Of a stretch of DNA of 64,000 nt, positions 5,821-56,811 are shown in pieces. Under the pieces are notes generated by a model. The model saw only the letters and a list, made by a program, of their open reading frames with translations, was not told the DNA's origin and did not search any database. Every line of letters begins with the position of its first letter. Within the stretch, counting starts at the first letter, position 1. This DNA comes from Spirochaetes bacterium GWB1_60_80 (GTDB lineage: Bacteria > Spirochaetota > Spirochaetia > Treponematales > UBA12059). Location of the stretch: assembly GCA_001829185.1 (NCBI GenBank), contig MIAR01000004.1, forward strand, positions 124,001 through 188,000, written 5' to 3'. The translations under genes were made by a program, and so were the position numbers.

Positions 5821-7863
5821 TTAGGCTCGGGTCCCAGCCACCAAACCGTTGTGGCGCAGCAGGGCGTCGATACTGGGGTCGCGGCCCCGGAAGGCCTTGA
5901 AGCTCTCGGCGGCCGGGCGGGAGCCGCCCATGGCCAGCACCTCGTCCCAGAATTTACGGCCCGTGACCGGGTTGGCACCGCCGGCTTCCTCAAAGGCGCT
6001 GTAGGCGTCGGCCGACAGGACTTCGGCCCACTTGTAGCTGTAGTAACCGGCCGCGTAACCGCCGGCGAAAATGTGGCTGAAACTGTTCGGGAAGCGATTG
6101 TAGGCCGGGTGGCGGATGACGGCCACTTCGCGGCGCACCGTGTCGAGCAGTTTCAGCCAATCACCCTGGTCGGCGTCAAAATCACTGTATACCAGCATAT
6201 CGAAGATGCCGAATTCCAGCTGGCGGACCATCTGCATGGCGGTCAGGAAATTCTTGGCGGCGTACATCTTGTCGAACAAGGTCTTGGGTAGCGGCGCGCC
6301 GGTATCGACATGGGCGCTCATCTGCTGGACCATGTCCCATTCCCAGCAGAAATTCTCCATGATCTGGCTGGGCAACTCGACGGCATCCCACTCGACGCCG
6401 CCGATACCGGATACGGGCAGCTCGTCAATGCGGGTCAGCATGTGCTGCAGGCCGTGGCCGAACTCGTGGAACAAAGTAGTAACCTGGTCATGGGTAAACA
6501 AGGCCGGCTTGCCGCCGACTGGGGCGCTGAAGTTAGTGGTCAGGTAGGCGATCGGCTTCTGGATACTGCCGTCGGCCAGGCGGCGGCGGCCACGGGCGTC
6601 GTTCATCCAGGCGCCGGCCCGTTTGCCCTCGCGGGCATAGAGGTCAAAGTAGAAGCCGGCAAAGACCAGGCCGTCCTTGACCAAGTCGAAATAGCGGACG
6701 TCTGGGTGCCAGACCGGCGCCTGACCGGGGACGACATCGACGCCATACAAGGTCTTGACGACATTGAACAGGCCGGCTACGGCCTTGGGTTCGGGGAAAT
6801 ATTGCTTGACTTCCTGGTCAGAAAAATCATACAGGGCCTGGCGCATCTTCTCGCCCACGTAGGTGGTATCCCAGGCTTCCAGCTGGGGTATTGCCAGGTT
6901 CTGGCGGGCAAAGTCGGCCAGCTCGGCGAATTCCTTAACGGCGAAGGGCTTGGAGCGGGCGGCCAAGTCGCGTTCAAAAGCCAGCACCTGGGCGGCTGAT
7001 TCAGCCATCTTTGTCTCGACCGACAGGCTGGCATAATCCTTGAAGCCAAGCAGGCTGGCCTTTTCCCGGGTCAGTTGCAGCCGTTCGCGGATGATCGGCG
7101 CGTTGTCGAATTGCTGGGGCTCAAATTCGGCGGCCCGCTTGACGTTGGCCGCGTAAATCTGTTCGCGCAGCGCGCGCTGGTCAGCGTACTGCATCAGCGG
7201 AAAATAGGAGGGAAACTGCAAGGTGATTTTATAGCCAGTCTTGCCATCCTTCTTGGCGGCCTCGCTGTACATGATCAGGGCATCCTCGGGGATGCCGGCC
7301 AACTCGGCTTTGCTTTCGATGAACAGGCTGAAGGCATCGGTGGCATCGAGGACGTTCTCGCTGAATTTGGCGCCTAACTCGGATAAACGCTGCTCGATGG
7401 CGGCAAAACGCTGCTTCTGGTCGACGCTCAACTCGGCGCCGGACAGGCGGAAGTCCCGCAGGGCGTTCTGGACCGTGGTGCGGCGGGCCAGCGGCCAGGC
7501 GGCGTAATCCGGCCGAGCGGCCAAGGCTTTATACTTGGCGTACAGCTCCAGATTCTGGCCGAGTTCGGAAAAGAAGACCGAAATCTTGGGCAAGTTGGCG
7601 TTGTATTCCTTGCGCAACTCGGGGGTGTTGACCACGGCGTTGATGTGGTCAACCGCGCCCCAGGCGCGCCCGATTTTCTCGGTGGCATCCACCAGCGGCT
7701 CGACGACGGTCGACCAGGCGGCGGCGGCAGTATCGCCGGTAACGGTCTTGATGGTCTGCCGGGCGGCCGCCAGCAATTCGTCGATGGCCGGCGTGATATG
7801 TTCCGGTTTAATCTGGGCAAAAAGTGGCAGATCGCTGAAATCCAGCAAGGGATTAGATGGCAT
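5821..7863 (-). CDS. prlC: M3 family oligopeptidase A-type zinc metallopeptidase
   Basis: This 680-residue cytoplasmic peptidase has the thermolysin-like zinc motif HEFGHGLQH (HExxH about residues 464-468) with the third ligand glutamate expected shortly after, near SQIMENFCWEW. Length and the N-terminus (NPLLDFSDLPLF, IKPEHITPAIDELL) match oligopeptidase A / Dcp-type M3A enzymes, which degrade short peptides including cleaved signal peptides. TTNFSAPVGGKPALFTHDQV and IFAGGYAAGYYSYKWAEVLSADAY are further family blocks. GGAGG lies 5 nt before the ATG. It appears monocistronic, with its own promoter and terminator. Confidence 0.93.
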   Translation of the reverse strand: MPSNPLLDFSDLPLFAQIKPEHITPAIDELLAAARQTIKTVTGDTAAAAWSTVVEPLVDATEKIGRAWGAVDHINAVVNTPELRKEYNANLPKISVFFSELGQNLELYAKYKALAARPDYAAWPLARRTTVQNALRDFRLSGAELSVDQKQRFAAIEQRLSELGAKFSENVLDATDAFSLFIESKAELAGIPEDALIMYSEAAKKDGKTGYKITLQFPSYFPLMQYADQRALREQIYAANVKRAAEFEPQQFDNAPIIRERLQLTREKASLLGFKDYASLSVETKMAESAAQVLAFERDLAARSKPFAVKEFAELADFARQNLAIPQLEAWDTTYVGEKMRQALYDFSDQEVKQYFPEPKAVAGLFNVVKTLYGVDVVPGQAPVWHPDVRYFDLVKDGLVFAGFYFDLYAREGKRAGAWMNDARGRRRLADGSIQKPIAYLTTNFSAPVGGKPALFTHDQVTTLFHEFGHGLQHMLTRIDELPVSGIGGVEWDAVELPSQIMENFCWEWDMVQQMSAHVDTGAPLPKTLFDKMYAAKNFLTAMQMVRQLEFGIFDMLVYSDFDADQGDWLKLLDTVRREVAVIRHPAYNRFPNSFSHIFAGGYAAGYYSYKWAEVLSADAYSAFEEAGGANPVTGRKFWDEVLAMGGSRPAAESFKAFRGRDPSIDALLRHNGLVAGTRA

Positions 7864-9083: not shown

Positions 9084-11447
9084 TCAACCCACCGCGCCAT
9101 CAACGACCCGCTGGCAGACCAGGGCTTGGCCGTTGACCTGCAACTCGGCCGCACCGACCAGCACCCGTCCGCCCGCGGTCCGGATCGGCACCGAGAAAAA
9201 GCTGTCGATATCGATTTCGCCGGGCACGGGCGAATCGGCCGGAGTACCGGCCAGTAGGACGCGACTGCCCGGTACTCCGGCGGTGGCGTCCAGCACCTCG
9301 CACTGTTCCTGGACATCGGCGCCCTTGATGCTGGCGGCCAGCAGCATGCCGGCGCTGACCGTGCCGCGCAGCTTGGCCGGCTTCAGGTTATTGGCCAGGA
9401 CGATATGCTTGCCGAGCAGTTCCTCGGGTTTGTAAAACGGCACCAGACCGGAAACGATGACCCGTTCATTACCGCTGCCGTCATCGAGGGTCTCGATGTA
9501 CAGTTTGTCGGCCTTGGGATGTTGCTCGATTTTGACGATCTTGGCGACGCGCAGGTCTATCAGTTTGGCGAAACGTTCCTCGACCGGCAGATCGGCGTAC
9601 GGCAGGGGCTTGGGCTCGGCTACCGGCGGGGCGACGACTGGGCTGGCGGTAGCGGCTGTAGTGGCGCTGGCCGGGGCGACAGCCGCGCCCGCTTTGCCGC
9701 CAGCCGGCGCGGCCGACGACGCGGCCGACGATTTGTCGTGCTGGCGCTGGCTGCGCTCCTTCTGGCTGCCGGCATAGCGCTCGCGCAACTCGTCGATCTG
9801 CTTGGGATCGAGCTTGGCGAACAGGACGTCGGGGGTGCTGATGCGGGTCAGGCCCTGCAGTCGGCCCAGATCGAACCAGTCCAGAGTTTTTCCGGACACG
9901 GTGGCCTTACCGGAATCCAGCGTCAGGCCGAAGAAGCCGGCCAGCTTGGACATGGCCTGCGGCATGTAGGGATGCATGATGATGGCTAGGTCGCGCAGGA
10001 CGTAGCACAGGTCGGACAGCAGGCTGTCGGCCTTGGCCGGATCCTCGGTGCGGGCCTTCCAGGGCGCGGCGTCCTGGAAACGCTTGTTGGCCAGGTCGGC
10101 GATCTGGAAGGCCAGGCGGAAGGCGTCGCGCAGATCGGCCCGCTCTAGCCGCTGCCCGATCTCGCCTTCCAGGCGGCGGACTTCCAGCCAGAAGGCCTCG
10201 TCCGGCTGGCCGACGGGGATGGCACCTGAGTAAAAGCGGTCGATGAAGGCCAGGGTGCGGTTGGCCAGGTTACCAAGATTGCCGATCAGCTCGCCATTGA
10301 CCTTTTCCAGGAAATCCGACCAGGTAAAGGTAAAATCACTCTTCTCGGGCCGATTGTAGAAGATATAGAAGCGCCAGACGTCGGCCGGGATGCCGGTTTC
10401 CATGACGTCGGTGCCGAAGACGCCGATGCCCTTGCTCTTGGAAAATTTACCTGACTCGTAGTTGAGGTACTCGGAGCTGGACATGTGGTGCAGCATCGTC
10501 CAGGGGCGGCCGGAGGCCAGCAGGGTGCTCGGGAAAATCACGGTATGGAAGGGGATATTGTCCTTACCGATGAACTGGAACAGTTCAACGTTGGCCGGGT
10601 CCTGCCACCAGGAACGCCAATCCATGCCGTTCTCGTCGGCCAGGGTGGCGGCGATGGAAATATAACCGATTGGCGCGTCGAACCAGACGTAGAAAACCTT
10701 GTCCTCGAATCCGGCCTTGGGCACCGGGATGCCCCACTTCAGGTCCCGGGTGATGGCGCGCGGCTTGAGCCCGTCGCGGATCCAGGCCTGGGTCATCTGG
10801 ATAGCGTTGTTGGCCCAGAAGCCGTCGTGGCTGGCCTTCTGCATCCAGGCTTCCAGCTTGGGCCGGATGGCCGGCAGGTCGATATAGAGGTGCCGCGTGC
10901 TCTTGGGGTGCGGTGTCTGGCCGCAGACCGAGCAGCGCGGCTCTTTAAGGTCGGTCGGGTCGAGCAGCTTGCCGCACTGCTCGCACTGGTCGCCGCGGGC
11001 GTCGGCGTAGCCGCAGTGCGGGCAGTTGCCGCGCACGTAGCGGTCGGCCAGAAAGCGGTCGCAGGCCGGGCAGAACAGCTGCTCGATGGTCTCTTCCCGG
11101 ATGTAGCCGGCCTGGTCGAGGTCATGGAACAGGCCCTGGACGATCTCGGTCTGCCGAGGGGTGCTGGTGCGGCCGAACTTGTCGAAGGCGATGCCGAACC
11201 ATCGGTAGATATCGCGATGGATGGCGAAGAAGCGGCCACACAGTTCGGCCGGGCTGACGCCCTCTTCCTGGGCTTTGGTCTCGGTAGCGGTGCCGTACTC
11301 GTCGGTACCGCAGATGTAAAGGGTCTCGAAACCGCGCAGCCGGCAGCCGCGGGCATAGACATCGGCCGACAGGACCTGGATCAGGTTGCCGAGGTGGGGT
11401 ACGTTATTGACGTATGGCAGGGCACTGGTAACTAAGCGTCGTTTCAT
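9084..11447 (-). CDS. metG: Methionyl-tRNA synthetase with C-terminal tRNA-binding domain
   Basis: The 787-residue enzyme has the class I HIGH-equivalent VPHLGN near residue 18, a zinc-knuckle insertion with four CxxC pairs (CPAC, CPHC, CEQC, CSVC) around residues 125-175, and the KMSKS-equivalent KFSKSKG near residue 335. A low-complexity Ala/Ser/Thr/Pro linker (about residues 565-615) leads to an EMAPII/Trbp111-like OB domain (LIDLRVAKIVKIEQHPKADKLY ... LKPAKLRGTVSAGML) that aids dimerisation and tRNA binding. It charges tRNA-Met and initiator tRNA. The ATG at 11447 has no Shine-Dalgarno sequence, and a near-perfect promoter ends only 8 nt upstream, so the transcript is probably leaderless. 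The FemX-like gene follows in the same operon. Confidence 0.97.
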   Translation of the reverse strand: MKRRLVTSALPYVNNVPHLGNLIQVLSADVYARGCRLRGFETLYICGTDEYGTATETKAQEEGVSPAELCGRFFAIHRDIYRWFGIAFDKFGRTSTPRQTEIVQGLFHDLDQAGYIREETIEQLFCPACDRFLADRYVRGNCPHCGYADARGDQCEQCGKLLDPTDLKEPRCSVCGQTPHPKSTRHLYIDLPAIRPKLEAWMQKASHDGFWANNAIQMTQAWIRDGLKPRAITRDLKWGIPVPKAGFEDKVFYVWFDAPIGYISIAATLADENGMDWRSWWQDPANVELFQFIGKDNIPFHTVIFPSTLLASGRPWTMLHHMSSSEYLNYESGKFSKSKGIGVFGTDVMETGIPADVWRFYIFYNRPEKSDFTFTWSDFLEKVNGELIGNLGNLANRTLAFIDRFYSGAIPVGQPDEAFWLEVRRLEGEIGQRLERADLRDAFRLAFQIADLANKRFQDAAPWKARTEDPAKADSLLSDLCYVLRDLAIIMHPYMPQAMSKLAGFFGLTLDSGKATVSGKTLDWFDLGRLQGLTRISTPDVLFAKLDPKQIDELRERYAGSQKERSQRQHDKSSAASSAAPAGGKAGAAVAPASATTAATASPVVAPPVAEPKPLPYADLPVEERFAKLIDLRVAKIVKIEQHPKADKLYIETLDDGSGNERVIVSGLVPFYKPEELLGKHIVLANNLKPAKLRGTVSAGMLLAASIKGADVQEQCEVLDATAGVPGSRVLLAGTPADSPVPGEIDIDSFFSVPIRTAGGRVLVGAAELQVNGQALVCQRVVDGAVG

Positions 11448-11455
11448 GGTGCCAC

Positions 11456-11484
11456 ATAATACGGGCTGGTTTTGGCACTGTCAA
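11456..11484 (-). promoter_or_regulatory. Strong promoter directly abutting metG (predicted leaderless mRNA)
   Basis: Minus strand perfect TTGACA (11479-11484), 17 nt, TATTAT (11456-11461). Only 8 nt separate the -10 box from the metG ATG, so transcription should start at or within about 2 nt of the start codon. Confidence 0.75.
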
Positions 11485-11510
11485 GAAGCCGGCCGGCCGG
11501 CCGTGAATCG

Positions 11511-14500
11511 TCAAAACATGACGCGCAGGTTCAGGCCAAACTCGTAGCCGAAGCCGAAGCGGCTATAGGCCAGGTATTGGTAGAGGTTCTGGTTCAGGCT
11601 GGCCGAAACGCCGGCTGAGACGCGGGCCGCAACGATATAACGACTCTCGAAAGACTGGCGGAATTGGATAGTAAACGGTTGGTCGGCCGCCGCCTGCTGG
11701 AAACGAAGCTCGACGCTCCATAATTCGCGCCGCACCGCCGCCTCCGGATCGATCGCCGTCAGCCAGGCCGAGACCAGGTTTATTTCGTCCGCGCTCGCCT
11801 CCGCAGTCTCATCGGTCGGCACCGGGCGGAGGTCCTCGTCTGAATCGGGCGAACCAAGCGCCAATGCCAGGAGCTTGTCAAGCAGGCTGCCGAACCAGGT
11901 TTCTTCCAGTCGGCGGTTGAAACCGACGAGGGCGCCGGCCGACCAGGTAGCCTCCAGCCGGGTGCTGGCTAATTTGCCGTCAAGGGACAGGTTGATCCCC
12001 CCGCCCGTTTCATCGGCCAGGTTGGCGCTGGCCGTGGCCGTCAACTGCGGCAGCATTACCCCGTCCGGCAACCAATTGAAGCTGCCGCCGAATTTCCAGG
12101 CATACTCGTCCAGTTCGACTGATTTAAACCAAGGATGCGGCGAACGGGCGGCGAAGACATTGACCGCCAGCGCCTCGGCCCGGACCGACAAGCTAGAAAC
12201 GTCGGCCATAGTATCGCCCTGCCGTTCCAGCGACCGTTGCCAGCCGAGGGTCAGACGTAGCGGCACCAGCAAGTCCAACCAACCGTAGCCAACCGGACGT
12301 TCCAACGCCAGACTGACCCTTGGCTGCCAGCTGGCCTGGCTGGCGGTCGGATTGGCCGCCAGGAACAGCTGTGGCAGATCCGGGTTGAAGAACTCGTCGA
12401 TCGGCCAGCTTGCCCACAAGCCCAGGCTGCCGGTCGTGTTCAGCCACCAAGTAAGCATATCGGCGCCGAAACCGTCCTCCGGGAAAGCGCCGGCGGTCTG
12501 TTGGGCGCGCTGGTAGGCCAAGCTAAAGCCGAAGGGGCCGATGCGCCAGGGTATGGTCAGCCCAGCCTCGAGCGAGGAGCGTGGCAGGCTGTCGCCGCCA
12601 GAGAGCTGGGCGGCGGTCGCCTCAAACCAGCCGGCTGGGCCAAGCCGCAACGACAGGCTGCTGCGCCGATTGTCGGCTACCCAAGCCTGAACCGGCAGGA
12701 CATACGGCCAGGTGGCCAACCAACCATCAGCCCAGGTCAAACCGGAAAAGCGACCGCCCGGCAGCTGTTCGAGCAAGTCCAGCCGCAGCGTCGCCAGGGC
12801 GGCACTACCGACGCTGCCTTGCCAGCGTCGTACAAACAGGCTGGCTGAATCTTCCGCCCGGTATCCCAGGTCAAGTTTCCAGCTCTCCCAGCCCAGCCGC
12901 AGGCCGAGTTGATGGGACAAGCGGGCCAGGCCGGCATTGTCGTAAAAATCGTGGCTGGCCGAGACAGCCGGCAGCGGCTGCCAAGCCGCTGGTGTAGCCA
13001 GGGCCAGTGCATAGCCGGCCCCCAGGTTGGCAGTCTCGCTGCCAATGGCTGGCTCCAGCCGGGCGCCCAGACGCAGCCACTCCAGATCGTAACCGGCCGC
13101 GAAACGGCTCTGGAGAGCCGTTATCGACGAACCGGCCGCCGGCAGATTAGCCAATCCGTAAGCGGAGACTAGCGCCGAAAACCCGCTGTCTGCGGCCGGG
13201 CGATACTGCCAGGCAGCGTCGGCCAGAAAGCTGGCCCCCTCGAGGGGATCCAATAGCAGGAACTCGGCCAACTGCAAGCTGGCTGTTTCCAGGCCGCTGA
13301 CCGCCAGCTCCACGATGGTAATGGCGCGCGCCGCATTGCAGGCCAGCACTTCGGCACCGGCCAAAGGCTCGAGCGCGGTGCCAGGGCTGGCGATCAACAA
13401 CTGGGGCTGCGCGGCGACCAGATCCAGTTCCAGCCGATACCACAGCCCGGTTGCCAAGGAAGCCAGCGGCAGGCGCAGGGTTATGCCGTCTGTCCCGTCG
13501 CCTAGATGCAGGTCGATCTCGGCCGCGCTATCGCAGCTGCCCGTCAACTGCAGGAAAAAGGAAAGCCTTCGATGCGTCGCCGGCAGCCGACTAGCCTGAT
13601 AGCTGCGTAGCCGCACGGCTTGGCCGGGAAGCGCCGCGCTGGTGGCGATGGTCAGGGCGACCGGCCTGGTAGCGGCCAAGCCCTGCGCCTGGTAGAACTC
13701 TTCCCAGTCGGCGGCCAGTTGCGGCAGATAGACCGAGCTTACGGTTTGCGTAGCCGCGTCGTGCTCCAGCACCATGAAGGTCGTGGTGTGCGTCAAGTCC
13801 GGTTGGAGGTCCAGCAAGTACATGGCGTTGGCGCTATCCAGCCGGCTCAAGCGGCCATGAAGCGCCAGGTGCCAGGGCTGGTCGGCGTCCGGTGCGATGG
13901 ATTCAGCGGCCGCGCTCAGGCCAAGCCAGGCTGGCAGCAGCGAGCGGCCATCACTGTCGGCGGCCGGCAAGGGCAGGCGGCCACCCAGCGCCAGCGCCAG
14001 GCGCAGCCGGTCCGGCCAGGTTTTGGTCAGGCCGAATCCGAGGGTCAGCGAACGATCCAGGCTATCCGGATCGGCCAGACTGTACTCGACCTGGATTTCT
14101 TCGCCGGCCGCCGGTGGCGGCAGCAAGTCGAGTCGACCGGTAGATGGGTCGTATTCAAAAGCGGGGCTGGGCAGGCCATTGCGCCAGACACTGATCGAGC
14201 CCGGGCTGGCGTCCGGATCGATCATGATGGCGTCCGCTTCGCGCAGTTGGTCAAGGACAAGCTCGAAAGGCGACAACAAGGGTGACAAGGGTGCCGTGAC
14301 GGTCGGTACCGGCGGCGGCGCGCCATACAGCCAAGCGGCGTCGGCGCTGAACGGCCGCATGAATCCGTCATCGGTCGCCGAAACCGCGGCCCCGGCCAGC
14401 GTCACCCGGACCAAGTCATCGCCCAGGCGCTCGATGGCAAAGGACCCATCCGTCAGCATGGTACGGCGTGATCGGACTGTCACCTCCGCCAGACCGTCGC

Positions 14501-19856: not shown

Positions 19857-21584
19857 CTACACCATGGCCCGGCCGGCCACCAGACTGTAGACCAATTCCA
19901 GAGCCAAGGCCAGGACGGACAGCGCGGCCAGCAACAGCAAAGAGCGCGCTCCCCGTTGCAGACGCTCGCGCCGGGAAAACAGACTGCCGAACCACAAGGC
20001 CAACGGCGCCATCACAAAAGCCAACAGCAGAGCATTGACGGGAGAAGGCGCTAAAACCAGCTCTAACACCGTGTCGTAGTAACTGGAAAGCATTGCCTGG
20101 ACCAGCATGGCAATCGGCAACAGCGCCAACAAAAAGCCGATCCAGGACAGCGGCCGGGTATTTCCCACCGTCAGAATGAGCACGGCCGGTACGATAAAAA
20201 GCAGGCTGTACTGGAACAGCACCGCCGTGGCAATCACGCTGTTTACGAAGAAGAGCATGGCGGCGGCCTGCAGCGCATTGGAGCGGCGGACTGGCGGCAT
20301 GAAGCGGAAAGCCTCCAGTAAACCGTAGAACAAGAAAAATAGCAGTACGTAATAAACCAACCTGGCGTAGAAAACGACCCGCCCGGATCGCGCCGCCGCG
20401 GTGGAAAAAATCAATTCCAGCAAGGCTGACAAATTGTTTGCAATGAAGCGGCCAGCCATGAAAGTCAAAAAAAACAGGATCACGACCCAAAGGGCCTCCA
20501 CCACCGGCAGGGATTGGATGCGCGCGGCCAGGGAAAGGCTCGGGCGGGTTACGGTCGGTTCTTGGAGGGCTGGCCCCGCCGACGCTCCAGGCGACGGGAG
20601 ACTGGCGAAAAGATTCTGCAGCGGCCAGTACAGCAGTAAGCGAAAGAAAAGAATGGCCAAGCAAAGCGCCATACCCAGCAGGTTCCAGCGCACCAGGCTG
20701 GTTTCGGCGATTATCAGTACCCGACCAAAAAAATCATAACTTAAATAATTGGCATCCGACGTCAGCGCTGGCGCGGCCGTCGTGGCTAGCCCGACAATAG
20801 CGGCCACCAACTTGGTTTCGACTAGCGCAGGCTCCTCGAGCCGGGCGGTTTGTCCAGGCTTGAGGCCGGGTTCCGGCGCGGCGGCCAGAAACAGCGCCGG
20901 GATTCCCTCAGCCAGTAACGCAGTTCCCAATTCATCGCCCGCCAGCAATCCGGCCTGCATGAAAAAAATGTCGAACGGATTCTCCCGCCAGTCTAAGTGC
21001 TGGCCACGAAAGGCCTGGCGCAACTCCTCAACTCGCTGCCGCTGGCAAAGCAGGCGGCCGCTACCGGTCCGGATCAGTGGATAATCGGGACGCCGATCCA
21101 GTTCCAGCCAGACCAGGTAATCCAGCCCGGTGAACGGCACCAGAAAATCGACCGCCGAATCGACGCTATCGTCGGGGCCAAGCATGATGAACAGTACCGG
21201 CCGGTTTAGCGCCAGATCGCGTAACTGCTCCAGAACAGCCAACGAAAGCGCGATGGACCACAACCCGCCATCGGTTTCCGGCCAGCGCGTCATCAAGCAA
21301 AACTGATAGGCGTTATACGCGGCTGTATCCTCGACAGCCGACTGATCCGCTGCCAGCTTGGTCTGGCCCGCAATCTGGTAGGCCAGCAATGCTGATGGCC
21401 CACATTGGTTCCCGCTAGCCACCGGCCGACCAACCGAATCCAGGTGTCGCGTAAGCTGGTCGGTCCCCTGGCCGGAAGCTTGCAACGTCGCAAACCAGTC
21501 GCTGATTGGCTGAACCGGTTCTTCCCCGGAAATGGCGAGTATGGTCAGAAGCAAAAAAACGGCAACAGCCAGCGGACGTCTCAT
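19857..21584 (-). CDS. Polytopic membrane protein with degenerate M28-peptidase-like extracytoplasmic domain
   Basis: This 575-residue protein has a signal or anchor sequence (MRRPLAVAVFLLLTILAISG), then a soluble domain of about 270 residues, then about eight hydrophobic helices (from about residue 300 to the C-terminus). The soluble part has the run WSIALSLAVLEQLRDLALNRPVLFIMLGPDDSVDS, which parallels the M28 aminopeptidase order (active-site loop, helix, strand, and the EE-x-GS region). The usual zinc ligands His/Asp and Glu-Glu are not visible. The overall layout resembles ER metallopeptidase/GPAA1-type proteins, which combine an M28 fold with a multi-span membrane domain. Function is unknown. 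A promoter ends 6 nt before the ATG, predicting a leaderless mRNA. dinB follows immediately. Confidence 0.6.
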   Translation of the reverse strand: MRRPLAVAVFLLLTILAISGEEPVQPISDWFATLQASGQGTDQLTRHLDSVGRPVASGNQCGPSALLAYQIAGQTKLAADQSAVEDTAAYNAYQFCLMTRWPETDGGLWSIALSLAVLEQLRDLALNRPVLFIMLGPDDSVDSAVDFLVPFTGLDYLVWLELDRRPDYPLIRTGSGRLLCQRQRVEELRQAFRGQHLDWRENPFDIFFMQAGLLAGDELGTALLAEGIPALFLAAAPEPGLKPGQTARLEEPALVETKLVAAIVGLATTAAPALTSDANYLSYDFFGRVLIIAETSLVRWNLLGMALCLAILFFRLLLYWPLQNLFASLPSPGASAGPALQEPTVTRPSLSLAARIQSLPVVEALWVVILFFLTFMAGRFIANNLSALLELIFSTAAARSGRVVFYARLVYYVLLFFLFYGLLEAFRFMPPVRRSNALQAAAMLFFVNSVIATAVLFQYSLLFIVPAVLILTVGNTRPLSWIGFLLALLPIAMLVQAMLSSYYDTVLELVLAPSPVNALLLAFVMAPLALWFGSLFSRRERLQRGARSLLLLAALSVLALALELVYSLVAGRAMV

Positions 21585-21590
21585 GCCACC

Positions 21591-21619
21591 ATACTAGGAA
21601 AGAGCCAGCATCGCGTCAA
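21591..21619 (-). promoter_or_regulatory. Promoter abutting the M28-like gene (predicted leaderless mRNA)
   Basis: Minus strand TTGACG (21614-21619), 17 nt, TAGTAT (21591-21596), then GGTGGC and the ATG. No Shine-Dalgarno sequence fits between the predicted start and the ATG. It would also drive dinB. Confidence 0.65.
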
Positions 21620-29829: not shown

Positions 29830-30489
29830 TCAAGTCCGTAAGGCCTTGACGGTCTGGACCAAGGCGGGCTTGTCGATCGCTGAAAAAAAGGCGCTGCCCA
29901 TTACCACCACATCGGCCCCGGCCTGAATCGCTGGCCCAGCGGTCTGCCCATTCATGCCGCCATCGACGGAAATCAAAAAATCAAGGTTTGCAGCCTGGCG
30001 CCTGGCCGCGAGGTCTATAACTTTATTCAGGCACGAGGCTATCAAGCCCTGCCCGCCGTAGCCCGGGTTAACCGTCATCACTAAAACCAAGTCGAGCATG
30101 GGCAGCAGCTCGAGCAACGCGGCTACTGGTGTAGAGGGTACAATCGATATTCCAACCTTGACGCCGGTGGCTTTAATCCGTTCAACTAGGCGATGGGCAT
30201 GTACCACCGTCTCGAGATGGAAGGTAATAGCATCGGAACCGGCCGTAATATATTCATCAAGCAATCCTTCTGGGTTGCCAACCATCAAATGCGTATCAAA
30301 AAACAAATCTGATCGACCTCTCAGATCCTTGATCATTTTCGGACCAAAGGTCAAATTCGGCACAAAGTGACCATCCATGACATCGAGATGCAACCACTGG
30401 GCGCGGCTTTGCTGGATGGCCGAAAGCGCCGCCGACATATCGGCGAAGTCAGCCGACAAAATAGATGGAGCTATAATCAATTCCTTCAT
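29830..30489 (-). CDS. rpe: Ribulose-phosphate 3-epimerase
   Basis: The 219-residue TIM-barrel enzyme has APSILSADF, WLHLDVMDGHFVPNLTFGP (metal and catalytic residues), DTHLMV, FHLET, VMTVNPGYGGQ and ISVDGGMN, all family signatures. It interconverts ribulose 5-phosphate and xylulose 5-phosphate in the pentose phosphate pathway. The ATG at 30489 lies only 6 nt from a TAGAAT -10 box with no Shine-Dalgarno sequence, so a leaderless transcript is predicted. It is divergent from a TPR gene. Confidence 0.96.
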   Translation of the reverse strand: MKELIIAPSILSADFADMSAALSAIQQSRAQWLHLDVMDGHFVPNLTFGPKMIKDLRGRSDLFFDTHLMVGNPEGLLDEYITAGSDAITFHLETVVHAHRLVERIKATGVKVGISIVPSTPVAALLELLPMLDLVLVMTVNPGYGGQGLIASCLNKVIDLAARRQAANLDFLISVDGGMNGQTAGPAIQAGADVVVMGSAFFSAIDKPALVQTVKALRT

Positions 30490-30495
30490 TTCATT

Positions 30496-30524
30496 ATTCT
30501 AGCATTTACACCAACATCCCACAA
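30496..30524 (-). promoter_or_regulatory. Promoter abutting rpe (predicted leaderless mRNA)
   Basis: Minus strand TTGTGG (30519-30524), 17 nt, TAGAAT (30496-30501), then 6 nt to the rpe ATG. Confidence 0.55.
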
Positions 30525-51212: not shown

Positions 51213-52670
51213 TTAAGAGTCCTGTTCATCGGCATCGTCTTCGTATTCGAAGGATAGCGCGACCCCGCACTGCGGGCAATGAGACATATCCGGTGTTATC
51301 TGAGCCTGACAATCCGGACATTCATAAAATTCCTGTTCTTCCGCGGTTTCGACTACTTCAGTGTCGTCAACGGTCTCTTCCTCGATGACTTCGATGTTCT
51401 CATCGATAATCTGTCGGATCATGCTGACGTTGTCGGCGCCTAGACCCTCGATGGCCAGCAACTCCTCGTCGCTCCGAGCCAGGACGTCCTCAATCATTTC
51501 AATGCCAACCGACCGCAGCTTGTCGACCAGGGCCGCGGATATGCCCGGCAATTCGTCAATGCGCTGCAATTCTTCTTCGTAGTCGCCTTCATTGAACAGG
51601 TTGGAAATTTCGCGTCGGGCATCGCTGGCGATATCCATTTCGCGGAACTGCTGTTCGGTCTTGACGTCGATATTCCAATCACACAGGCGGTTAGCCAGCC
51701 TGACATTCAAGCCTTGCTTACCGATGGCCACCGACAGCTGACTATCATCGACTACCGCCAAGGCCGTATGCTTGGCTTCGTCCAAAACATAGACTTCCTT
51801 GACATCGGCCGGCGACAAGGCATTGCGGATAAAGCGCCGTGGATCAACTTCGTATTTAAGAACGTCGATCTTCTCGCCTTCCAGCTCCTTGATGATATTC
51901 TGAATGCGGATACCCTTCATGCCAACGCAAGCGCCGACCGGATCGACATCGTCCTTCCGGGAATAGACCGCGATCTTGGTACGATAACCCGGCTCGCGCA
52001 CGATCTTGAAAACCTCCACGGTCTTGTCGTAAACCTCCGGAATTTCCAGTTCCATGATCTTCTGGACGAATTCAGGGTGGGTCCGGGACAGGACAATCTG
52101 GGGGCCGTTCTTGTTAACCTCGGCAATATAGGCCTTGATGCGCTCGCCTGGCTGATAGACTTCCCGGGGCGACTGGAATTTCTTGGGGAAAAAGCCTTCG
52201 ACCTTGCCTAAATCGACGAAAATGTTGCCGTTCTTTTCCCGTTGATAATAACCGATGATGATTTCGCCGAGCTTGGCATGGAATTCGGCGTACAGTGTAT
52301 CGCGCGATATCTCACGCAGGGATTGCCGGGTGGTTTGCTTGGCGAGCATCACTTCCTGGAGGTCAAACTCTTGGGGATCGATCGGTATTTCCAGCACATC
52401 ACCGGCTTCGGCCTCAGCGGCGATTTCCTTGGCCTCCTCAAGGGAGATTTCCAGGACTGGATCGTAGACATCATCGACGATTTCTTTCTTGGCGAGGATC
52501 TCGACGCCTTCATAATCGGGCTTAAAGCGCACGACGGCGTTATCGGATGTCCCGAAACGTTTCTTGTAAGCCGCCAACAAGGCATCTTCGATTGTCTTCA
52601 GAACCAGATCCTCGGAAATATTTTTTTCATGAATCAGTTGCCTGATTGCTTCTGCCATATTTGAAGCCAT
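51213..52670 (-). CDS. nusA: Transcription termination/antitermination factor NusA with C-terminal HhH and zinc ribbon
   Basis: The 485-residue protein has the NusA N-terminal RNAP-binding domain (about 1-125), an S1 domain (about 135-200), two KH domains (GACVGMKGIRIQNIIKELEGE and QLSVAIGKQGLNVRLA) and a helix-hairpin-helix segment (LPGISAALVDKLRSVGI, LLAIEGLGADNVSMI). After an acidic stretch it ends with a CxxC-x11-CxxC zinc ribbon (YECPDCQAQ ... HCPQCGVAL) at about 450-472, which is not part of the standard family. The start at 52670 has GGGAGGGTAGG upstream and lies 3 nt after the rimP stop. Confidence 0.96.
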   Translation of the reverse strand: MASNMAEAIRQLIHEKNISEDLVLKTIEDALLAAYKKRFGTSDNAVVRFKPDYEGVEILAKKEIVDDVYDPVLEISLEEAKEIAAEAEAGDVLEIPIDPQEFDLQEVMLAKQTTRQSLREISRDTLYAEFHAKLGEIIIGYYQREKNGNIFVDLGKVEGFFPKKFQSPREVYQPGERIKAYIAEVNKNGPQIVLSRTHPEFVQKIMELEIPEVYDKTVEVFKIVREPGYRTKIAVYSRKDDVDPVGACVGMKGIRIQNIIKELEGEKIDVLKYEVDPRRFIRNALSPADVKEVYVLDEAKHTALAVVDDSQLSVAIGKQGLNVRLANRLCDWNIDVKTEQQFREMDIASDARREISNLFNEGDYEEELQRIDELPGISAALVDKLRSVGIEMIEDVLARSDEELLAIEGLGADNVSMIRQIIDENIEVIEEETVDDTEVVETAEEQEFYECPDCQAQITPDMSHCPQCGVALSFEYEDDADEQDS

Positions 52671-54091: not shown

Positions 54092-56773
54092 TCAGCGGCC
54101 GAGATCAGCCTTGAAAGCCGCCAGACGCTGGAGGGCCTGCAGCGGGGTCAGATTGTCGATATCGAGGCTGCGCAGGGCATTGATCACCAGTTCATCGGCG
54201 CTAAAAAGGGCCGGAGCGGCCACGACCCGGCCACGACCGTCGTTGCCAGCCAGCCTTTTACCCATGTCCCGAACCAGACTTGGATCGCCTGCGGACTTGC
54301 TGGCCGTCATGATTTCGTGGTGGGCTTCACGCACCGCCAATAGGGCGCGCAAGTCTGCCGCCCGGGCGACTACGGCTGGCGGCACGCCGGCCAAGCCGGC
54401 CACATGGATGCCGTAGGAGCCGGCCGCCGGACCGGGCACGACGCGCTTCAGGAAAACCACCTCCCCGGAGCGCTCCTCCACCGCCATGGAAATTTCCAGC
54501 AGCCGGGGATGCTCCATGGCCGTCAATTCATGGTAATGGGTGGCAAACAGAGTCCGGCATTGCAGAACATTGAGCATGTATTCGCTAACCGCCCAGGCGA
54601 TGGCCAAACCGTCCTGGGTGCCGGTTCCCCGGCCGACCTCATCCATAATAACCAGGCTGTGGCGGCTGGCATTATTGAGGATACTGGCGGTTTCGTGCAT
54701 CTCGAGCAGAAAGGTGGACTCGCCGCGCGCCAGGTTGTCCTGCGCCCCTACCCGACAAAATATCCGGTCGCATAGGCCGATGACCGCCTGGTCGGCCGGC
54801 ACAAAGCAGCCGGCCTGCGCCAAAAGGACAATCAAGGCATTTTGGCGCAGGAAAGTCGACTTGCCGGCCATATTGGGGCCGGTCAGCAAGGCAAAACTGC
54901 AGGCGTCGACGCTCAGGCTAGTATCGTTGGCAATAAAATCACCAGAAGGCAGGTGCGCTTCCACGACCGGGTGACGGCCGCCGCGGATATCCAGAATTCC
55001 CTCGCTTGACAACCCCGGCCTGGTATAACCACGGGTCATGGCTACGGCGGCCGCGCTCAGATGACAGTCGAAATCGGCTATCGCCTGCGCCAGTTGCATC
55101 AGTGGCGAGGCGCAGGCCTTAACCCGGTCGCGGATAGTCAAAAAGAGCGTTTTCTCGATTTCTACGATCCGATCCGCCGCGCTCATGATATCGCTTTCCA
55201 AACTGGCTAGGCGCTCGGTACTGAAACGCTCCGCGCTGAGTACCGATTGGCGTCGGATGAAGTGAGATGGCACCGCTTTGGCCGCTTGCTTGCCGAGCTC
55301 CAGATGATAGCCCAGCACCCGGTTAAATTTAAGCCGCAAGCCTGGCAGCCCGCTGCTAGCGCGCTCTTCTTCCAGGTAGGCAGTCAATACCGTCTGGGCG
55401 GAATCTTTGAGCCGGCGCAAGTCGTCCAGCGGCGGGTGCCAGCCCTCCCGGATAACCGGGCCATCGGCTGGTGTCAAGGCTGGCTCGTCCAGGATGGCGG
55501 CGGCCACCAGGTCGCGCAATTCTTGCATCACGGCCAGGGTAGCGCCGTCGGCAAAGGCTGGCCGGTCTGCCTGGCAGGCACCAGCGGCGGTCTTGGCCGC
55601 CAAGGCTGTGGCATAGGCTTGGTGGAATCGTAACGCGGCCTCTAGCGTCAACTTGATGGCCAACAAATCCTTGGGAGTGGCCTTGTCCATGGCCAGGCGG
55701 GCCGTCAACCGTTCCAGATCAAGGCACTGTTTTAGGGCAGCCCGCGATTTTTCCAGCAAGGCTGGCTGGTGATAAAAAAAATCGACCATTTCCAGACGCC
55801 GCTCAATTGCCGCCAGGGATCTCAGTGGTTGCAGCAGCCGCCGACGCAGCTCCCGGGCTCCCATTGGTGTCAGCGTGGCGTCAACCGTAGCCAGCAGCGA
55901 AAAAGCCTTGCCGCCGTCGCGCAGATTGCGGACGATTTCCAGGTTGCGCTGGGTCGACTCATCAATGGCCACAAACTGGCCCGTGTCGCAGGTCTGCAAT
56001 GATAAAACATGGTGCAAGGACAATTTGCAGGTTTCACTGGCGTATTCGATCAGAGCGCCGGCCGCGGCCAGGGCTGGGTCATCTTCCGCAAACCCGAAAC
56101 CCTGGCTGCCAAGAGTGCCAAAATGCCGCTTCAGGACGCGCAAACCATGCTCGCGGCTAAAACTCCAGTCCGGCAGGCGATTTATCACCACATCGGTGTA
56201 TTCACTCAGGATTTCACCGGCTACCGGATGCCGCAGACTCGATTCGCGCACTACCAATTCGCGGGGCGCGAGCCGGCACAGCTCGCGGCGCAACATCTCG
56301 CGGTCAGCGGCGGCGAAGGATTCGGCCCGAAATTCCCCGGTGGAGCTGGAAAGCCAGGCCAAGGATACGTGCTCCTCGGCACCCTTATTCAGTACCGCTA
56401 CGGCCACCAGGTAGTTGTCGAGAACCGCTTCCAAAAAATCCTCATCATTGACCGTGCCCGGGCTGATGACTTCGACGACTTTTCGCTCAATCAGGCCTTT
56501 GCCTTTTTGCGGGCTGCCGATTTGCTCACAAATGGCTATCTTGCGACCAGCCTTGAGTAAACGGGTGATATAATTGCGGGAAGCGTGCCAGGGAATACCA
56601 CACATCGGGGCCGACTGACGTTGTGTCAAGGTCAAATTGAGGAGGCGACTGACCTCTATGGCGTCATTATTGAACATTTCATAAAAATCGCCTAACCTGA
56701 AAAACAGGATGGCGTCGGGATATTCTGCCTTGACCCGGTCGTACTGCTCGCTGAGGGAAATCTGCTCGGCCAT
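54092..56773 (-). CDS. mutS: DNA mismatch repair protein MutS
   Basis: The 893-residue protein has the mismatch-binding motif FFRLGDFYEMF near the N-terminus (Phe-x-Glu within DFYEMF), the Walker A motif TGPNMAGKSTFL (about residue 629) and LVIMDEVGRGTGTQDG (Walker B and signature), plus a C-terminal dimerisation tail. The start MAEQISLSEQYD at 56773 fits the family; an ATG eight codons earlier overlaps the predicted -10. The promoter lies 9 nt upstream with no Shine-Dalgarno sequence. comF follows. Confidence 0.97.
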   Translation of the reverse strand: MAEQISLSEQYDRVKAEYPDAILFFRLGDFYEMFNNDAIEVSRLLNLTLTQRQSAPMCGIPWHASRNYITRLLKAGRKIAICEQIGSPQKGKGLIERKVVEVISPGTVNDEDFLEAVLDNYLVAVAVLNKGAEEHVSLAWLSSSTGEFRAESFAAADREMLRRELCRLAPRELVVRESSLRHPVAGEILSEYTDVVINRLPDWSFSREHGLRVLKRHFGTLGSQGFGFAEDDPALAAAGALIEYASETCKLSLHHVLSLQTCDTGQFVAIDESTQRNLEIVRNLRDGGKAFSLLATVDATLTPMGARELRRRLLQPLRSLAAIERRLEMVDFFYHQPALLEKSRAALKQCLDLERLTARLAMDKATPKDLLAIKLTLEAALRFHQAYATALAAKTAAGACQADRPAFADGATLAVMQELRDLVAAAILDEPALTPADGPVIREGWHPPLDDLRRLKDSAQTVLTAYLEEERASSGLPGLRLKFNRVLGYHLELGKQAAKAVPSHFIRRQSVLSAERFSTERLASLESDIMSAADRIVEIEKTLFLTIRDRVKACASPLMQLAQAIADFDCHLSAAAVAMTRGYTRPGLSSEGILDIRGGRHPVVEAHLPSGDFIANDTSLSVDACSFALLTGPNMAGKSTFLRQNALIVLLAQAGCFVPADQAVIGLCDRIFCRVGAQDNLARGESTFLLEMHETASILNNASRHSLVIMDEVGRGTGTQDGLAIAWAVSEYMLNVLQCRTLFATHYHELTAMEHPRLLEISMAVEERSGEVVFLKRVVPGPAAGSYGIHVAGLAGVPPAVVARAADLRALLAVREAHHEIMTASKSAGDPSLVRDMGKRLAGNDGRGRVVAAPALFSADELVINALRSLDIDNLTPLQALQRLAAFKADLGR

Positions 56774-56778
56774 GATTC

Positions 56779-56793
56779 TTGCATTATATGCAA
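56779..56793. promoter_or_regulatory. 15-bp palindrome over the mutS -10 box
   Basis: TTGCAT-TAT-ATGCAA is a perfect inverted repeat covering the mutS -10 (TATAAT on the minus strand). On the plus strand it overlaps a weak TTATAT -35 that is 17 nt from TACAAT (56807-56812). It is a candidate operator for a divergent promoter pair. Confidence 0.4.
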
Positions 56794-56811
56794 ACATGGG
56801 TTAGGATACAA
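56783..56811 (-). promoter_or_regulatory. Promoter abutting mutS (predicted near-leaderless mRNA)
   Basis: Minus strand TTGTAT (56806-56811), 17 nt, perfect TATAAT (56783-56788), 9 nt before the mutS ATG. Confidence 0.65.

Follow-up and report, generated by a model that had tools for sequence, protein, structure and literature searches.

Leaderless genes in spirochaetes are already known, having been predicted in 2011 and, in Leptospira, mapped experimentally in 2017. Zheng et al. (2011) predicted leaderless genes in 6 of 18 Spirochaetes genomes, at a mean of 3.9% (range, 1.8 to 6.9%) (PMC3160421), which is close to the 5.1% reported here, although that work gives whole-genome percentages and its text mentions neither metG nor Treponema. 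For Leptospira interrogans, differential RNA sequencing (dRNA-seq) placed the transcription start sites of about 440 genes within 10 nt of the start codon (PMC5243855). That organism resembles ours in belonging to the spirochaete phylum and in carrying leaderless genes beside Shine-Dalgarno (SD) genes in one genome, but it is a member of another class and its 5' ends were mapped, whereas those described here are predicted from sequence; the available text of that study yielded no report of particular leaderless genes being conserved between species. In Mycobacterium and Deinococcus, too, leaderless genes coexist with SD genes, and leaderless mRNAs are far more numerous than here (PMC5243855 cites 505 for M. 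tuberculosis and 1174 for D. deserti); Mycobacterium uses GUG efficiently as well (PMC9031893), whereas the set described here starts with ATG only. Leaderless transcription has been predicted in 21.6% of bacterial species in the GeneMarkS-2 work, as cited in PMC9581028. Our literature search, which was of incomplete coverage, found no experimental leaderless mRNAs in Treponema.

The DNA analysed here, referred to as the window, is a 64-kb stretch of a spirochaete metagenome-assembled genome (MAG). The original prediction described four of its genes, metG, an M28-like gene, rpe and mutS, as having sigma-70-type promoters with a 17-nt spacer and a -10 box ending 8, 6, 6 and 9 nt, respectively, before the ATG, and as lacking an SD sequence; the sequence bears out the description of all four promoters, and an SD of 4 or more bases is present at none of the four genes (0/4). 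With a probability of about 0.9, we assign these genes to a leaderless class that would comprise about 5% of the genes of the host spirochaete, most of the others using an SD. The features of metG are as follows.

9084 to 11447, minus strand: metG, encoding methionyl-tRNA synthetase (MetRS), with its ATG at 11447 and MetG homology from residue 1
11479 to 11484, minus strand: metG -35 box, TTGACA, conserved in orthologues
11456 to 11461, minus strand: metG -10 box, TATTAT, separated from the -35 box by a 17-nt spacer and ending 8 nt before the ATG

Read on the minus strand, this promoter is TTGACA-17-TATTAT-GTGGCACC-ATG, the best sigma-70 match of the window and the sole one scoring 11/12. In protein comparisons MetG shares 52 to 82% identity with its counterparts in spirochaete genomes, over the full length in most, the closest being from Spirochaetales/Spirochaetes MAGs, and no in-frame ATG, GTG or TTG occurs 5' of the metG start up to the first stop. 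The upstream gene, encoding 1289 aa, lies on the same strand across a gap of 63 nt; between it and the metG -35 box, at 11485 to 11511, is a G+C-rich palindrome with no T-run, GGCCGGCCGGCCGGC, a possible terminator or protein site.

The SD sites expected at ppdK, prlC, nusA and greA were all found, that of greA (GAGGAG) at its true start, 31760, and korB has one too. Three of these genes are specified below.

5821 to 7863, minus strand: prlC/opdA, with the SD sequence GGAGGT; its TATAAT promoter lies about 38 nt before the start codon
23193 to 26207, plus strand: ppdK, with an SD kept in 13/13 orthologues
51213 to 52670, minus strand: nusA, with an SD of 4 or more bases kept in 16/16 orthologues

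The three other genes of the putative leaderless class, and their promoters, are located as follows.

54092 to 56773, minus strand: mutS, with Pfam domains MutS I-V and a start fixed by orthologue alignment
56806 to 56811 and 56783 to 56788, minus strand: mutS -35 box (TTGTAT) and -10 box (TATAAT), the latter ending 9 nt before the ATG at 56773
29830 to 30489, minus strand: rpe, encoding ribulose-phosphate 3-epimerase (Pfam PF00834)
30519 to 30524 and 30496 to 30501, minus strand: rpe -35 box and -10 box (TAGAAT), the latter ending 6 nt before the ATG
19857 to 21584, minus strand: M28-like gene (575 aa), a name taken from the original prediction
21614 to 21619 and 21591 to 21596, minus strand: -35 and -10 boxes of the M28-like gene, the latter ending 6 nt before the ATG

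The mutS promoter reads TTGTAT-17-TATAAT-GCAAGAATC-ATG. The gene begins at the second in-frame ATG (56773), the point from which its orthologues are similar; the longest open reading frame (ORF) starts at 56797, 24 nt upstream. At rpe the arrangement is TTGTGG-17-TAGAAT-AATGAA-ATG; the -35 box is weak in the host genome, and the orthologue consensus has TTGAgc at -35 and TGcTAgaAT in the -10 region. Start codons further downstream are contradicted by the N termini of MetG, MutS and Rpe, which are conserved from residue 1. The promoter of the M28-like gene, TTGACG-17-TAGTAT-GGTGGC-ATG, is likewise in place, but the M28 label found no Pfam match, even at an E value of 0.01. A convincing homologue was found in a same-genus genome only, and at the N terminus the alignments with close homologues amount to a single partial match; by these comparisons the gene is lineage specific. 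Since it has neither a Pfam match nor a convincing homologue beyond the genus, its promoter is without phylogenetic support and is argued from its own sequence.

The count of distances between -10 boxes and start codons against shuffled sequence, which the original prediction had proposed genome-wide, was run on a sample of 1.06 Mb, 29% of the 3.6-Mb MAG. Gene starts were called by a home-made coding-potential caller with intergenic and shadow-frame background, which is blind to motifs (upstream sequence was not examined), and promoters by a consensus score over the two hexamers; because the caller still placed the starts of rpe, the M28-like gene and others short, in-frame ATGs were also scored directly. 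TANNNT peaked at positions ending 6 and 7 nt before called starts (32 and 16 occurrences versus about 9 per position), alongside a strong AGGAG peak. With the two-hexamer score, 21, 7, 5, 4 and 4 promoters ended 6, 7, 8, 9 and 10 nt before the start, respectively, and none at 11 to 15 nt. Such near-start promoters thus precede 41 of 800 called starts (5.1%), where a first-order Markov model predicts 1.1 and shuffling 1.5, and the signal was found at 59/1374 in-frame ATGs versus 5/1025 out-of-frame ones (Fisher's exact test, P = 4e-10). The same code found 0/120 starts in E. coli K-12 and 10/133 in same-family genomes; in a second sampled family (f4) the signal was weak at called starts (4/108, two with an SD), with 10/201 in-frame versus 1/175 out-of-frame ATGs.

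A scan against a consensus always yields some matches, and one could argue that the four promoters are chance A/T-rich hexamers, or that wrong start codons were picked because of them. We regard this as hardly credible in view of the out-of-frame ATG, Markov, shuffle and E. coli controls, together with orthologue conservation and the starts of metG, mutS and rpe, which protein conservation fixes. For these three genes the controls and orthologues refute it; the M28-like gene, which has no orthologue support, falls outside that refutation.

Genes with near-start promoters also differ from the rest in how their translation appears to begin. An SD of 4 or more bases is found in 2/41 of them versus 384/759 of the others, and versus 49/73 of the genes with a promoter 17 to 60 nt upstream (P = 1e-11). 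All 41 start with ATG, compared with 59/73 of the leadered genes (P = 0.002), which fits the AUG requirement of leaderless translation in E. coli (PMC9031893). The two initiation modes proposed for this organism are, on sequence evidence, well supported within one genome by the distance peak at 6 to 7 nt, the absence of SDs, the ATG-only starts and orthologue conservation. Other members of the set are murC, recO, mnmE, rlmB, two pseudouridine synthase genes, carD, cas2, genes for a pgsA-like CDP-alcohol phosphatidyltransferase and an ABC-F-like ATPase, and several for transcription regulators of the PadR, AraC, MarR, Rrf2 and TetR types. The set thus holds, from the same genome, both the CRISPR gene cas2 (L013:136-420) and the gene for a CarD-family regulator (L028:5997-6575).

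Orthologue conservation provides the strongest evidence for the predicted leaderless-type promoters. Orthologues were gathered from related genomes, and one fixed promoter score was applied to all window genes. A leaderless-type promoter was found in 59/78 orthologues of metG, 26/28 of mutS and 23/30 of rpe, and, with the remaining window genes pooled, in 3 of more than 200 orthologues. In metG orthologues, the distance from the -10 box to the ATG is 6 to 10 nt (mode, 8 nt). Counted by family, with slightly wider spacer limits than in the fixed score, the metG layout occurs in 43/46 Spirochaetia loci from eight related families (f1, 17/17; f2, 1/1; f3, 10/12; f4, 8/9; f5, 2/2; f6, 3/3; f8, 1/1; f9, 1/1). 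It was found in 0/4 loci of a putative Borrelia-like family and in 0/7 loci of two families outside the class, and most of these loci have an SD site. The metG spacer carries 0.09 bit per base versus 0.6 to 1.9 in the -35 box and 0.5 to 1.9 in the -10 box, values that come from promoter-selected loci, with a bias that is small for metG, as 3/46 Spirochaetia loci fail the score; such a spacer indicates that the promoter and its distance to the ATG have been retained, rather than the region as a whole.

Beyond the window, many orthologues of murC, carD and mnmE throughout the order retain a -10 box 5 to 10 nt from the ATG. For rlmB the -10 box lies near the start in many orthologues and the -35 box is poor (3/29 over threshold), making it a weak case of a conserved leaderless gene; prfC was rejected as another, with the layout in 5/13 orthologues only. 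A 1.1-Mb genome of a Treponema-like family carries a metG without the leaderless layout (L204, G032:C1:865673-868105), and its murC (L353) keeps it, as TTGCTA-17-TAAAAT-6-ATG.

The mutS promoter (56774 to 56811) and its orthologues (L125 to L153) share the pattern aTTGTATCcTAg..CAt.tTccccTATAATGCAAC, a conservation far beyond the needs of a promoter that includes both the spacer (mean, 0.57 bit) and the discriminator. We considered a wider operator because the spacer is so unusually conserved, and the pattern suggests an overlapping regulator site; the motif was not found as a repeated promoter elsewhere in the 1.06-Mb sample.

The near-start promoters might be secondary, the main transcripts being leadered and arising from upstream promoters or readthrough. 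The short gap between metG and its same-strand neighbor is compatible with this, as readthrough could also yield a leadered mRNA; however, metG, mutS and rpe have no SD here and few in their orthologues, so that a leadered mRNA would lack an SD as well, and conservation at metG is restricted to the -35 and -10 boxes. We consider this explanation improbable.

The leaderless reading can be set out as follows: (i) sigma-70 RNA polymerase would bind a -35/-10 promoter whose -10 box ends 6 to 9 nt before the ATG; (ii) at that distance, transcription would start on the start codon itself or up to about 4 nt from it; (iii) the resulting mRNA would carry no SD; and (iv) the ribosome would presumably initiate on the 5'-terminal AUG, probably as a 70S particle with initiator tRNA. 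The transcription part has strong sequence evidence, while the translation part is an inference from established work on leaderless mRNAs. With a 6-nt discriminator, as in rpe, the M28-like gene and the genome-wide mode, the A of the ATG is the expected +1. For metG (8 nt) and mutS (9 nt), leaders of about 0 to 4 nt, rather than exactly 0, are more likely given the purine preference of transcription initiation, and we describe these two as leaderless or near-leaderless because the preferred purine often lies a few nucleotides upstream of the ATG. It is possible, and we hold it as a tentative alternative, that the promoters are real and transcription starts 2 to 5 nt before the ATG, so that the mRNAs have very short leaders and are translated by a different or less efficient route, not by true leaderless initiation. 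The distances at metG and mutS, beyond the 6-nt mode, make a leader of 2 to 4 nt likely, and in many orthologues the first purine of the usual start window falls a few nucleotides before the ATG; on the other hand, rpe and the genome-wide mode place the A of the ATG at +1, and a leader of even 3 to 4 nt is too short for an SD site.

Leaderless genes are usually given as percentages per genome; what appears to be new here is the deep, gene-by-gene conservation of the layout across families. That it has lasted across several families while the surroundings of metG have diverged looks like the work of selection and not of chance, and suggests that certain housekeeping genes are selected to stay leaderless. 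In metG, mutS, rpe, murC, carD and mnmE, a set with housekeeping, repair and RNA-modification functions, the arrangement has apparently been retained through order- or class-level divergence. The gene lists name concrete targets for mapping 5' ends in spirochaetes that can be cultured. They also show that a -10 box 6 to 9 nt before the ATG should be taken into account when start codons are annotated in Spirochaetia, as the longest ORF of mutS exemplifies. We also entertain, as a speculation that is unlikely to hold, that these six genes form a core that has been kept leaderless through most of the evolution of Spirochaetia because leaderless initiation itself acts as a control. If true, translation of MetRS from a bare 5' AUG, for example, would be tied directly to charged initiator tRNA and could in this way feed back on the supply of MetRS.
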